DNA of 64,000 nt from Candidatus Avelusimicrobium intestinale. GTDB taxonomy: Bacteria; Elusimicrobiota; Elusimicrobia; Elusimicrobiales; Elusimicrobiaceae. A program made the position numbers and the translations under genes. Shown one piece after another: positions 7,569-58,929 of this stretch (position 1 is the stretch's first letter; every line of letters starts with the position of its first letter). The notes under the pieces are model-generated. The model had not been told where the DNA came from. It did not search any database and was given only the letters and a program-made list of their open reading frames with translations. The stretch covers positions 190,697 through 254,696 of the forward strand of contig CACWYV010000002.1 in NCBI GenBank assembly GCA_902765225.1, read 5' to 3'.

Positions 7569-8498
7569 ATGGAAACGAGCGCAAAAATTTTACTGGCGGA
7601 TGATTCACACGCTATCCGGTTTTTGGTATCTGAAATTTTAACCCGGGCCGGGTTCCGCGTTATTACGGCACAGGACGGGCAAGAAGCCATTGAAAAAACT
7701 TACAAAGAAAGCCCGGACTTGCTCATCCTGGATTACGAAATGCCTAAAAAAACGGGCTTTGAGGTGGTGCAGGAAGTCCGCAGCCGTACGGGTTATTTGC
7801 ATACCCCCATCATCATCTTCACCGCCAATACCGAAAAAAACACCAAACTGGAAGGGTTGGGTATGGATATTGACGACTACCTTACCAAACCCGCAGATGA
7901 GGATGAAATTGTTGCCCGCGTCAAACTCTTACTCAAACGCAATAAACAAAAAATGGATTGTAACCCACTGACCCGTTTGCCGGGTAATCCGTCCATACAA
8001 GCCCGTGTAGAAACGGAAATTGCCAGCGGCAAACCATTTGCTGTCTTGTATTGCGATTTAAACAATTTTAAATCTTTTAACGATAAATACGGTTTTGAAG
8101 CCGGGGACCGCGTACTCAAACAGGAGGCCGATATCCTCGTCCAAGCCGCCCGCCAAGACCCTAACTCTTTTGTAGGACATATCGGCGGGGATGATTTTAT
8201 TATCGTAACGACTTTTGATAAAGCGGAGAGTATCGCCCGGGAAATTATCCGCCGCACCGACGAAGCCGCTCCCTCCTTCTATAACGAGCAGGACCGTGCC
8301 CAAGGTTTTATGTTGGCCCATAACCGCAAAGGGGAATTGGAGAAATTTAATTTCCTGGCCATGGGTATCGGTATTGTGCACAACACCCGTCGGCCCCTGC
8401 AATCATTTGCGATGGTCAGCCATATTGGTGCGGAACTGAAGTGCCTGGCTAAACAACACGAAAACGGCAGTTACTATGTACTGGACCGGCGCTGCTAA
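7569..8498 (+). CDS. Response regulator with GGDEF diguanylate cyclase domain
   Basis: A 309-residue protein made of a receiver domain (1-120) and a GGDEF domain (about 135-305). Receiver residues are Asp11-Asp12, phosphoacceptor Asp55 (LILDYEMP), Thr in FTAN and Lys in TKPAD. The signature loop is GGDDF at 206-210, an allowed active form, so it should make cyclic di-GMP upon phosphorylation (PleD/WspR type). The usual RxxD inhibitory site before the signature is not seen. The start at 7569 is chosen because a TTGCAC-17-TACAAT promoter ends 7 nt before it. It lies downstream of a pilin gene, which may hint at control of surface behaviour. Confidence 0.85.
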   Translation: METSAKILLADDSHAIRFLVSEILTRAGFRVITAQDGQEAIEKTYKESPDLLILDYEMPKKTGFEVVQEVRSRTGYLHTPIIIFTANTEKNTKLEGLGMDIDDYLTKPADEDEIVARVKLLLKRNKQKMDCNPLTRLPGNPSIQARVETEIASGKPFAVLYCDLNNFKSFNDKYGFEAGDRVLKQEADILVQAARQDPNSFVGHIGGDDFIIVTTFDKAESIAREIIRRTDEAAPSFYNEQDRAQGFMLAHNRKGELEKFNFLAMGIGIVHNTRRPLQSFAMVSHIGAELKCLAKQHENGSYYVLDRRC

Positions 8499-55850: not shown

Positions 55851-57911
55851 ATGGAAAACTCGGAAGTAATCAATCACATCGTCAAACGGGATGGGAGCAC
55901 CCAGCTTTTTGACTCCAAAAAAATTACAAAGGCCATCTGCAAAGCCGCCGAAGTCACCGGAGAATTTAACCAAGATACCGCTAAAAAATTAACCATTCGC
56001 GTTATCAACATTATCCAACAGTTGTACTCAAATTCTGTGCCCAACGTGGAAAATGTGCAGGATATTGTGGAAGACGTATTATTGACTTCCAACTATCATA
56101 AAACGGCCAAGGCCTATATCTTGTACCGCGACCAGCACGCCCGCATGCGTGAAATTTCTTCCAAATTCAACGTAGATTTGGTGGACCAGTATCTCCAACA
56201 AATTGACTGGCAAGTCAACGAAAACAGCAACATGGGTTATTCGTTGCAGGGATTAAACAACTATATTTCTTCCGAAATCAGCAAAGTGTATTGGCTCAAT
56301 AAAATTTATCCGGCCAACGTCAAGCGGATGCACACGGAAGGCGATTTTCACTTGCACGATTTGGGCTTGTTGGGCGCGTACTGCGTCGGATGGGATTTGC
56401 AAGATTTACTGCTCAGCGGTTTTACGGGCGTGGTGGGCAAAGCGGAGAGTAAACCGGCCAAACACTTACGCACGGCTCTGGGCCAGGTGGTCAATTTCTT
56501 CTACACCTTACAGGGCGAAAGTGCCGGCGCGCAAGCGTTTAGCAACTTTGACACGCTTTTGGCTCCCTTTATCTACTACGATAAACTAACCTATGATGAA
56601 GTTAAACAGGCCCTGCAGGAATTTTTGTTCAACGTCAACGTGCCTACCCGCGTAGGTTTCCAAACGCCGTTTACAAACTTAACGCTGGATTTGACCGTTC
56701 CTTCTTATTATAAGGACCAGCCGGTCATCATTGGCGGGAAATTACAGGATAAAACGTACGGCGAATTCCAAAACGAAATGGATATGCTCAACCGCGCTTT
56801 CTGCGAAGTCATGCTCGCGGGAGATGCCAAAGGCCGCGTGTTTACGTTCCCGATTCCTACCTATAACATCACGCGCGACTTTGATTGGGATAATCCCAAG
56901 CTGACCCCTCTGTGGGAAATGACCGCAAAATACGGTATCCCGTATTTTGCCAACTTCATTAACTCGGATATGAACCCGGAAGATGCCCGTTCCATGTGTT
57001 GCCGGTTGCGCATTGACAACCGCGAACTGCGCAAACGCGGCGGCGGCTTATTCGGTTCGGCCCCGCTGACGGGTTCTATCGGCGTGGTAACCATTAACCT
57101 GCCGCGTCTAGGGTATTTGTCCAAGAACGAAGATGAATTTTTTGCTAACTTAAAAGACCGCATGGAAGTGGCTAAAACCAGTTTGGAAATTAAACGCAAA
57201 GTGATTGAACGCTTTACCAAAGGTAACCTCTATCCGTATATGAGTTTCTACTTACGCTCGGTGCGCCAACGCTTTAACGAATACTGGAAAAATCACTTCT
57301 CTACTATCGGGTTGGTGGGTTTAAACGAAGCCGCTCTCAATTTGATTGGGGAAGATATCGGTTCCGAAAAAGGCCGCGCTTTTGCCGAAAAAGTGCTTAC
57401 GTTTATGCGTGAAACCTTGGTAAAATTCCAAGAAGAAACCGGTAACAACTATAACCTGGAAGCCACCCCGGCCGAGGGCACTTCGTACCGCTTGGCCAAA
57501 CTGGATAAAGAGCGTTACCCCGATATCATTTGCGCAAACGAAGAAATGTATAAGCAAGGCCACCAACCTTTCTATACCAATTCTTCGCAATTACCCGTTA
57601 ACTATACCGACGACGTATTTGAAATGTTGGACTTGCAAAGCACCATCCAATCCAAATACACCGGCGGAACCGTGCAGCACATTTTCACCGGGGAACGCAT
57701 TAAAAATTTAGAAGCGATGAAGAAATTTATCCGCACCGTATGCGAAAAATATACGTTGCCGTATTTCTCCATCACGCCTACATTCAGCGTTTGCCCCAAG
57801 TGCGGCTATATTGAAGGGGAACATTTTGAATGTCCCAAATGCAAAGCCGAACGGATGCAGGAATTGGACCGCAAGGTCAAAATGTTGGAAGAACAGCTTT
57901 ACAGTAAATAA
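55851..57911 (+). CDS. nrdD: Anaerobic ribonucleoside-triphosphate reductase, large part lacking the glycyl-radical segment
   Basis: 686 residues. N-terminal ATP-cone (VINHIVKRDGSTQLFDSKKI, about 1-100), then the ten-stranded barrel with FHLHDLG, SMCCRL (Cys383-Cys384), TGSIGVVTINLPRLG and the C-terminal zinc site Cys648, 651, 661 and 664 (CPKCGY, CPKC). Family members continue with a segment ending RVxGYxxP that carries the radical Gly. Here the protein instead ends in a charged helix, MQELDRKVKMLEEQLYSK. The missing segment is encoded by the next gene. ATG at 55851 with AGGA upstream. Likely the oxygen-independent source of deoxynucleotides. Confidence 0.92.
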   Translation: MENSEVINHIVKRDGSTQLFDSKKITKAICKAAEVTGEFNQDTAKKLTIRVINIIQQLYSNSVPNVENVQDIVEDVLLTSNYHKTAKAYILYRDQHARMREISSKFNVDLVDQYLQQIDWQVNENSNMGYSLQGLNNYISSEISKVYWLNKIYPANVKRMHTEGDFHLHDLGLLGAYCVGWDLQDLLLSGFTGVVGKAESKPAKHLRTALGQVVNFFYTLQGESAGAQAFSNFDTLLAPFIYYDKLTYDEVKQALQEFLFNVNVPTRVGFQTPFTNLTLDLTVPSYYKDQPVIIGGKLQDKTYGEFQNEMDMLNRAFCEVMLAGDAKGRVFTFPIPTYNITRDFDWDNPKLTPLWEMTAKYGIPYFANFINSDMNPEDARSMCCRLRIDNRELRKRGGGLFGSAPLTGSIGVVTINLPRLGYLSKNEDEFFANLKDRMEVAKTSLEIKRKVIERFTKGNLYPYMSFYLRSVRQRFNEYWKNHFSTIGLVGLNEAALNLIGEDIGSEKGRAFAEKVLTFMRETLVKFQEETGNNYNLEATPAEGTSYRLAKLDKERYPDIICANEEMYKQGHQPFYTNSSQLPVNYTDDVFEMLDLQSTIQSKYTGGTVQHIFTGERIKNLEAMKKFIRTVCEKYTLPYFSITPTFSVCPKCGYIEGEHFECPKCKAERMQELDRKVKMLEEQLYSK

Positions 57912-57919
57912 TTTTCCTT

Positions 57920-57948
57920 TTGGGATTATTTGGGATAGGAGGGATAAT
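57920..57948 (+). promoter_or_regulatory. Candidate promoter of the small radical subunit
   Basis: TTGGGA, a 17-nt spacer, GATAAT (57943-57948), just after the nrdD stop. An 8-bp stem with one G-U pair (about 57921-57950) overlaps it. It would give the small gene its own transcript with a leader of about 100 nt. Confidence 0.4.
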
Positions 57949-58051
57949 TCCAAGAGGCAGCGGCGGCAGGGATAAAGACCGAGGGTATTTCACGGTCCCC
58001 CGGTTGGGATGTATACCTGTTGCACCGAGAGATAATTAGGAGAAATACTAC

Positions 58052-58279
58052 ATGACAGCACAAGAAAAACAAGCCGTAGAGAATCAAATTTCGGAACTCA
58101 AACAAGAGATGAACGATGTTCACGGTTCCAAGTGCGAGGTTTATTCGCGCGTAGTGGGTTATTTGCGCCCGGTACAAAACTGGAACAAAGGTAAGAAAGA
58201 AGAATTTGGAATGCGCAAAAACATGAACGTCAACAACTGCAATTGCGGTTGCGGATGTGAATGCCAAAGCGATAAATAA
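58052..58279 (+). CDS. Separate glycyl-radical subunit of anaerobic ribonucleotide reductase
   Basis: 75 residues. Residues 29-53 are the C-terminal glycyl-radical segment of NrdD (EVYSRVVGYLRPVQNWN, then GKKEEFGMRK), with Gly36 as the expected radical site. Residues 3-23 form a charged helix with heptad-like spacing (AVENQISELKQEM), facing the similar helix at the end of the large subunit. The tail is Cys-rich (NNCNCGCGCECQ). The ORF has its own strong ribosome site (TTAGGAGAAAT), lies 140 nt from the large gene in a different frame, and is followed by nrdG. This is best read as a two-part NrdD. Confidence 0.85.
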   Translation: MTAQEKQAVENQISELKQEMNDVHGSKCEVYSRVVGYLRPVQNWNKGKKEEFGMRKNMNVNNCNCGCGCECQSDK

Positions 58280-58305: not shown

Positions 58306-58929
58306 ATGAAAATCGGCGGACTGATTAAATTTACACTGATTGACTTCCCGGGCCGGCCGGCGGCGGTGATTTTTACCCAAGGGTGTAATTTCCGTTGTCG
58401 TTATTGCCACAACCCGGAGTTGGTCTATCCGCACCTATTCACCGAACCCGTTCCCCAAGAGGAAATTTTTTCATTTTTACAGCGCCGCCAGGGCACCCTG
58501 GAAGGCGTTGTTATTTCTGGGGGAGAACCGACCCTGCAAGAGGGGTTGATTCCTTTTACGGCCGATATTAAAAAAATGGGCTACGCCGTCAAGCTGGATA
58601 CCAACGGGGCCCGGCCCGATGTATTGGCAGAACTGTTAGATAAAAAACTGTTGGACTACATTGCCATGGACTTAAAAGCTCCGTTGGATAAATACAGTCT
58701 GATCACGAGCGTGGATACCCCGCCGGAAATTTTAATGAAGTCCATGCAACTCATCCGCCAAAGCGGTGTCGCGTATGAATTTCGCACCACCTATGATAAA
58801 GAAGTTTTAACGGATGCGGACATTCAAGCTCTTGAAAAACTCACCGATAAAGAACACTACCGCGTGCAAGAGTGTCTGCCGGTAGCCAAAGAAAAAGCCG
58901 CCCTCAAAGTGCTGCATAAAGAAATTTAA
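58306..58929 (+). CDS. nrdG: Anaerobic ribonucleotide reductase activating protein
   Basis: 207-residue radical SAM enzyme that installs the glycyl radical on NrdD. The cluster motif is C-N-F-R-C-R-Y-C (CxxxCxxC). It also has VISGGEPTLQ for SAM binding, KLDTNGARPD and YIAMDLKAP. It is 26 nt downstream of the small radical subunit, consistent with action on that Gly. Length and motifs fit the NrdG2/pyruvate formate-lyase-activase-like type seen with this class of NrdD. Confidence 0.93.
   Translation: MKIGGLIKFTLIDFPGRPAAVIFTQGCNFRCRYCHNPELVYPHLFTEPVPQEEIFSFLQRRQGTLEGVVISGGEPTLQEGLIPFTADIKKMGYAVKLDTNGARPDVLAELLDKKLLDYIAMDLKAPLDKYSLITSVDTPPEILMKSMQLIRQSGVAYEFRTTYDKEVLTDADIQALEKLTDKEHYRVQECLPVAKEKAALKVLHKEI

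Follow-up and report, generated by a model that had tools for sequence, protein, structure and literature searches.

We analysed a 64,000-nucleotide stretch of the Candidatus Avelusimicrobium intestinale genome (contig CACWYV010000002.1; the whole stretch is hereafter the window) that encodes the class III ribonucleotide reductase (RNR) NrdD in two parts, followed by nrdG. The first gene (55851–57911, plus strand) encodes a 686-residue body with an ATP-cone, the catalytic domain and a zinc knuckle, without the radical segment, and matches Pfam NRDD (PF13597) and ATP-cone, as well as NF006126 and TIGR02487, these two over their cut-offs (TIGR02487, 555.8 bits against 326.35). Cys383 and Cys384 (56997–57002) lie in an MCCR finger loop (residues 382–385), a double-cysteine motif of the class described in section 9 of PMC9669993, and Cys648, Cys651, Cys661 and Cys664 mark the four-cysteine zinc site (57792–57842). 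The C-terminal tail of the body, KAERMQELDRKVKMLEEQLYSK, has a heptad pattern (57843–57908), and in a relative of the same genus the equivalent stretch is predicted to form a helix. Because the NRDD match covers profile positions 1–538 of 562 (E = 3.8e-190) and stops there, the last 24 positions, in which the radical glycine lies, are absent from the body; it lacks the C-terminal glycyl-radical segment that an ordinary NrdD carries on the same chain.

A 140-nucleotide spacer (57912–58051) separates the body from a small open reading frame (ORF; 58052–58279, plus strand) in a different frame, and contains a hairpin at about 57916–57957 and an AGGAG ribosome site (58038–58042) that ends 9 nt before the ATG of the small ORF. 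The encoded 75-residue protein, a putative NrdD radical subunit, consists of an N-terminal heptad helix, the radical segment and a cysteine-rich tail. It matches NRDD positions 531–560 of 562 (E = 1.8e-9), which together with the body match puts the cut after Cys664, the last cysteine of the zinc site, and before the radical loop. Gly36 (codon at 58157–58159), invariant in the 16-row alignment A1, is the predicted glycyl-radical site. PF13597 was the only match to the small ORF at E values up to 1, with none to PF01228, the radical domain of pyruvate formate-lyase (PFL). Downstream, nrdG (58306–58929, plus strand) encodes a 207-residue radical S-adenosylmethionine (SAM) activase (TIGR02495, 209.2 bits against a cut-off of 131.15). 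A separate radical-segment ORF beside a shortened NrdD is confirmed, and we file the locus as a two-chain class III RNR variant, not as an ordinary NrdD, because the radical segment lies on its own ORF.

Conservation of the two genes and the RNR complement

Named relatives of the locus are rumen and gut Elusimicrobiaceae, Elusimicrobium and Ca. Avelusimicrobium. Among the matches listed for 90 family genomes, PF13597 was found in 87 and the small-subunit profile A1 in 85, and 84 encode the small protein in a separate open frame of at most 115 residues; the arrangement that the first-pass annotation had suggested seeking in relatives, an NrdD ending at its zinc site with a small ORF alongside, is the family norm. 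In G070 the A1 match belongs to an intact NrdD, and no A1 match is listed for G030, G069, G081, G082 or G089. The same matches show body alignments to PF13597 ending early in family genomes, and the cut falls at roughly one profile position across several phyla. A strict pattern finds the body accompanied by the small ORF and a radical-SAM ORF in 62 of the 80 relatives' loci kept (from 195), and 9 of the 80 have no body. The MCCR and zinc-site motifs are conserved across 48 rows of body sequence.

Both the body and the small protein are under purifying selection. Across 71 Elusimicrobiaceae loci, the ratio of non-synonymous to synonymous change (pN/pS) stood at 0.073 in the radical segment, at 0.214 in the final 20 body codons and at 0.325 in the head helix (the 24 codons preceding the radical segment); these values are all-pairs means over non-independent pairs with synonymous sites near saturation. 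The in-frame alignment is clean in both coding parts, and the spacer does not align. The cysteine-rich tail that the first-pass annotation had singled out in the small protein is present in the window and proves variable, sometimes absent, across relatives.

The hairpin at 57916–57957 lies directly past the body stop and has a counterpart in most family spacers; the first 70 nt of the spacer fold with z < −2 in 56 of 71. It is sometimes trailed by a promoter-like TTGAAA-17-CATAAT, a possible promoter of the small gene's own and the best promoter-like site in 17 of the 71 spacers. Best sites reach p ≤ 0.05 against shuffled sequences in 15 of 71, and the best site in the window has p = 0.18.

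The window's assembly (1.41 Mb, 98.94% complete) contains no NRDD match beyond the body and the small ORF, extending to the whole assembly the earlier remark that no intact NrdD copy was visible, and it contains no match to the class I/II catalytic domain PF02867. That domain is likewise absent from 74 of the 90 family genomes, making the divided NrdD the sole RNR found in most of them, and from 44 of the 51 good genomes (completeness of 90% or more, contamination of 5% or less). It is present in 16 of the 90, including G089, in which NrdD is absent.

Separate genes and a putative two-chain enzyme

Across 111 distinct pairs, the small ORF lies in each of the three frames relative to the body with nearly equal frequency (40, 36 and 35), with gaps that range from −8 to 519 nt around a median of 120. 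ATG is the start codon of all 111 small ORFs and 110 have a Shine–Dalgarno (SD)-like motif of at least 4 bases, counts that are favourable because the start was taken as the best-scoring candidate. The fixed frame relation and conserved junction expected of a recoded gene are both missing from these pairs.

In one genome, G303, the two genes are unlinked. The body (C25:6720–8351; L306 855–2900) lies in the interior of a 39-kb contig, and the next ORF, which reads as folC-like, is unrelated to it; the small ORF (contig C50 of 14.9 kb, position 7801; L157 2284–2466) lies in the middle of its own contig behind ORFs that read as phosphotransferase-system-like. With each gene on its own contig and at a distance from the contig ends, the G303 body and small protein must, barring misassembly, act in trans. 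The first-pass proposal of an NrdD made of two polypeptides, with the radical glycine on a protein of its own, is well supported: given the conservation, the random frame, the purifying selection, the unlinked genes of G303 and the finding of no further RNR in the window's assembly, we consider it highly probable that the locus encodes a class III RNR of two chains in which the small protein supplies the radical loop in trans.

Other explanations fare poorly against the same data. Stop read-through, frameshifting or bypass could in principle join the two ORFs into an ordinary NrdD, and in L023 and L065, as in a second NrdD of G067 (L004), the small ORF does share the frame of the body with one stop between. 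Against this stand the uniform relative frame, the variable gap, a spacer that is unconserved and in many loci holds several stops, the SD motif and ATG belonging to the small ORF itself, and the unlinked genes of G303; the frame statistics and the G303 arrangement rule out recoding as the general explanation, leaving it very improbable here, and read-through is possible for the second NrdD of G067, where a single TAA interrupts a shared frame. Sequencing error or a decaying pseudogene might be suspected given that the named relatives are mostly metagenome assemblies, and we give this next to no chance: among the matches listed the small ORF is separate in 84 of 90 family genomes and the cut position is near-identical in several phyla, pN/pS is far below 1 in both parts, and the split recurs in the closed genome of an isolate, Endomicrobium proavitum. 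Selection and this isolate genome rule out pseudogene and assembly error alike. It is also improbable that the body is inactive or draws on another radical source, with the small protein serving as a spare part or regulator and deoxynucleosides supplied by salvage. Against this stand the conserved MCCR and zinc-site motifs of the body, its grouping with the small ORF and a radical-SAM ORF in most loci, and a family in which most members have no other RNR found.

For the two-chain enzyme we infer the following scheme. The body would fold as a barrel that ends at the zinc knuckle, and the 75-residue protein would dock through its conserved segment and bring the radical loop into the barrel in trans. 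In Elusimicrobiaceae, the N-terminal helix of the small protein and the C-terminal helix of the body would probably form an antiparallel coiled coil, as if a hairpin had been cut at its tip. NrdG would take a hydrogen from Gly36, the radical would pass from Gly36 to Cys383 or Cys384, and nucleotide reduction would then follow the course of one-chain NrdD. Since the small chain alone would be cleaved by oxygen, repair could be achieved by swapping the 75-residue protein, making the radical subunit potentially exchangeable.

AlphaFold models of two natural in-frame read-throughs, each folded as a single chain, agree with docking at the usual place, short of proof. In the models of L023 (Elusimicrobiaceae) and L275 (Deferribacterota) the tail and head helices are both predicted. 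The L023 model matches Thermotoga maritima NrdD with Z 30.8 and 4.2 Å over 536 residues, spanning 85–785. Against T4 NrdD (1h78 and 1h7b) its last aligned residues are 767 and 587, an offset that would place the small-protein glycine (model residue 760) on Gly580, the T4 radical glycine given in PMC2795772, and against P. copri NrdD the glycine falls within one residue of Gly711. In the L275 model residue 760 aligns with T4 587, and its own glycine, 753, would again correspond to 580.

Several points weigh against the two-chain interpretation or its structural detail. Its basis is sequence and prediction. The register is an offset taken from first and last aligned residues only, and against 1h7a it differs by one residue for the L023 model. 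Confidence is low where it matters most: in the L023 model the predicted local distance difference test (pLDDT) score is below 50 at 758–762, which include the glycine, and at the finger loop, and about 60 around the glycine; in the L275 model it is about 30 over the radical segment, so that the agreement in register is weak there. AlphaFold2 has trained knowledge of one-chain NrdD and was given a read-through, not a complex, and both models come from relatives, neither being the window's own pair. Some genomes with a divided NrdD also hold another RNR, and there the split could be tolerated and not needed. In all 16 genomes tested from the Endomicrobium relatives (family f21) and Deferribacterota, PF02867 occurs alongside the split form, which is the sole NrdD found in each.

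The coiled coil is a further point of this kind. The first-pass annotation had proposed a heterodimeric coiled coil between body tail and small-protein head, and this part of the proposal fits Elusimicrobiaceae, in which heptad-like patterns occur in 54 of 56 tails and 48 of 56 heads (distinct pairs). Elsewhere the tails are weaker, with 5 of 19 tails and 18 of 19 heads in Deferribacterota and 2 of 11 and 9 of 11 in the Endomicrobium relatives, and in the seven proteobacterial pairs neither element has the pattern. Those seven pairs rule out a coiled coil as the general rule; the predicted coiled coil is a local elaboration.

Divided NrdD and lone radical segments beyond the family

Far from being singular, the arrangement is widespread, occurring in Endomicrobium relatives, Deferribacterota, Proteobacteria and viruses. 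Among the Endomicrobium relatives, 12 regions (L149–L160) carry a small ORF with its own helix. These include E. proavitum Rsa215 (PMC4505116), a closed PacBio isolate genome in which the only NrdD is split, with a 4-nt overlap between body and small ORF; other members of f21 have an intact NrdD (L161–L165 and L167). In Deferribacterota, 24 of 50 genomes have an A1 match, of which 22 lie in a short separate frame, one (G341) in an intact NrdD and one (G388) in a lone form. Fifteen of the 18 Deferribacterota regions read hold a body and a small ORF; L286 has the small ORF and a body truncated at the end of the contig, and the other two are an intact NrdD (L284) and a lone copy (L285). Plasmid-borne split loci occur in the proteobacterial genera Paracoccus, Cereibacter, Shinella, Aquabacterium, Bradyrhizobium and Sulfuricystis, with three small ORFs labelled 'nrdD' and one 'hypothetical' in public annotation, and the NrdDs of Acidiphilium and Actinomyces are intact. 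Two viral records also contain a split body and small ORF.

A maximum-likelihood tree of 59 bodies (47 split and 12 intact), built quickly, requires five changes between split and intact states, three of them forced by starred branches. Bodies were cut before the zinc site, with the window row alone whole, and L157 and L301 were dropped because no body was extracted; support is from the Shimodaira–Hasegawa-like approximate likelihood ratio test only, and the tree has several long branches and some rows of odd composition. A starred group of 23 unites the Elusimicrobiaceae and Endomicrobium split bodies beside intact Elusimicrobiota NrdDs, and the split bodies of Deferribacterota, Proteobacteria and viruses fall elsewhere. 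A single origin of the split is rejected on the five changes, in which gains and re-fusions are indistinguishable.

The genome G067, a single contig of 1,643,562 bp, has a split body (L168) and, in addition, the second NrdD mentioned above, which belongs to a different subfamily (L004 1489–3897, minus strand, on G067:C1). This NrdD is likewise cut between the zinc site and the radical loop, with a 746-residue body, a ribosome site and a radical ORF of about 50 residues. An ORF that reads as NrdG-like lies upstream (L004 4424–3909).

Radical segments also occur alone. More than one A1 match is listed for 25 of the 90 family genomes, giving 30 extra matches, and we read 25 of these from 21 genomes (L169–L193). 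None of these 25 stretches, several of which reach a contig end, contains a body-like motif. Most lone copies keep a helix-like head before the loop (not clearly so in L178 and L188), and pN/pS over 23 distinct lone segments is 0.17, in a set for which the presence of the glycine is uninformative because the glycine formed part of the search pattern. The surroundings of these extra copies are largely those of prophages. Seven of eight lone loci scanned have PHROGs matches nearby (L190 has none), six of them to named phage functions, which include endolysin, integrase, reverse transcriptase and virion protein; for L182 and L188 no recognised phage gene lies within about 3 kb.

Individual prophage loci show further features. 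Several lone copies are placed behind prophage lysis genes. In L178, a 240-residue ORF (at the same place as L107 4443–5165) resembles the virion protein phrog_6121 and continues without a change of frame into an NrdD radical segment; it may be a remnant fusion. The L173 prophage includes, roughly 3 kb ahead of its lone copy, a reverse transcriptase ORF (phrog_1423) that possibly belongs to a diversity-generating retroelement. At L115 2036–4444, an intact phage NrdD has a C-terminal extension that reads as glutaredoxin-like and is followed by a thioredoxin-reductase-like ORF.

A scan of IMG/VR with patterns from conserved small-subunit stretches, which is not a census, retained 56 viral loci (L214–L269), only two of which have an NrdD body within 5 kb. 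Of 50 viral records searched whole, 48 yield no match above the cut-off other than to the radical segment, and the remaining two, which are those just mentioned, have a body as well; these records may be incomplete, and G396 shows one more match, a weak one that misses the cut-off. A search of a viral structure library gave nothing further on the lone segments. The two viral bodies (L226 3336–6425 and L251 168–3221) are about 1020 residues long, lie beside a separate radical ORF and contain a large insert that, from its size and place, looks like an intein. CxxC pairs precede the loop in some lone forms, for example in the 144-residue protein of the ANMV-1 virus, the gene for which bears the name nrdD in the legend to a figure of PMC4372165.

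We are nearly evenly divided on whether radical subunits form a mobile and interchangeable pool of several separate origins, from which viral and prophage copies would activate or repair a host body in trans. For the lone viral copies only, a rather unlikely alternative is sabotage, whereby the segment would titrate host NrdG or displace the host radical subunit and stop host DNA synthesis. Sabotage would fit the presence of the segment without a body in viral records and its position behind lysis genes in several prophages, and purifying selection on the lone segment is predicted equally by a role as spare part. However, a phage itself needs deoxynucleoside triphosphates, and the whole segment, not just the glycine within it, is conserved, which suggests a functional component.

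Comparison with known systems

In the open-licence literature searched, the radical-bearing domain of NrdD is handled as part of a single chain, and we found there no account of an NrdD whose radical subunit is a protein of its own; the available parts of PMC3019208, PMC11226230, PMC9531940, PMC4390871, PMC2864759, PMC12288474, PMC11257099 and the RNRdb article PMC2795772 contain none. The parts themselves are already named in public annotation; it is the split arrangement that was not found described in that literature. For annotation it matters that small proteins with the radical segment go under 'nrdD' or 'hypothetical' in deposited records, and segment-less bodies under plain reductase names. 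A natural two-chain NrdD would allow radical transfer to be studied by mixing subunits and mutating only 75 residues, and would allow one to ask whether oxygen-damaged enzyme can be rescued by a swap of the small chain. With the lone viral copies, whether glycyl-radical enzymes besides PFL have spare parts becomes a question open to direct test.

The divided enzyme shares with one-chain NrdD of T4, T. maritima and P. copri the ATP-cone, barrel, finger-loop cysteine, zinc knuckle, radical segment and NrdG, with a fold match of Z about 30. It differs in that the radical segment is a separate gene product, and in Elusimicrobiota and Deferribacterota by the extra helices at the cut ends. Split class II RNR NrdJa/NrdJb (PMC4520616 and PMC9669993) is also a two-chain RNR, but its class and cut differ, and PF02867, which would mark such an enzyme, is the domain missing from the window's assembly. 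Fragmented phage nrdD genes also come in pieces; those in the available part of PMC3653736 are broken by introns, inteins, endonuclease inserts and interrupted frames, and none is a separate radical subunit.

The closest likeness is to GrcA/YfiD and T4 Y06I, small stand-alone radical proteins that complete a truncated glycyl-radical enzyme and that, like the NrdD segments, include a phage version (PMC8683613). That article recognizes only two validated spare parts, both for PFL, and treats others as a speculative possibility; lone viral NrdD segments would be the NrdD counterpart of these proteins. By contrast with GrcA/YfiD, the small ORF of the window belongs to the NrdD family, with no PF01228 match, and is the only copy found in its genome, not a spare for an intact enzyme.

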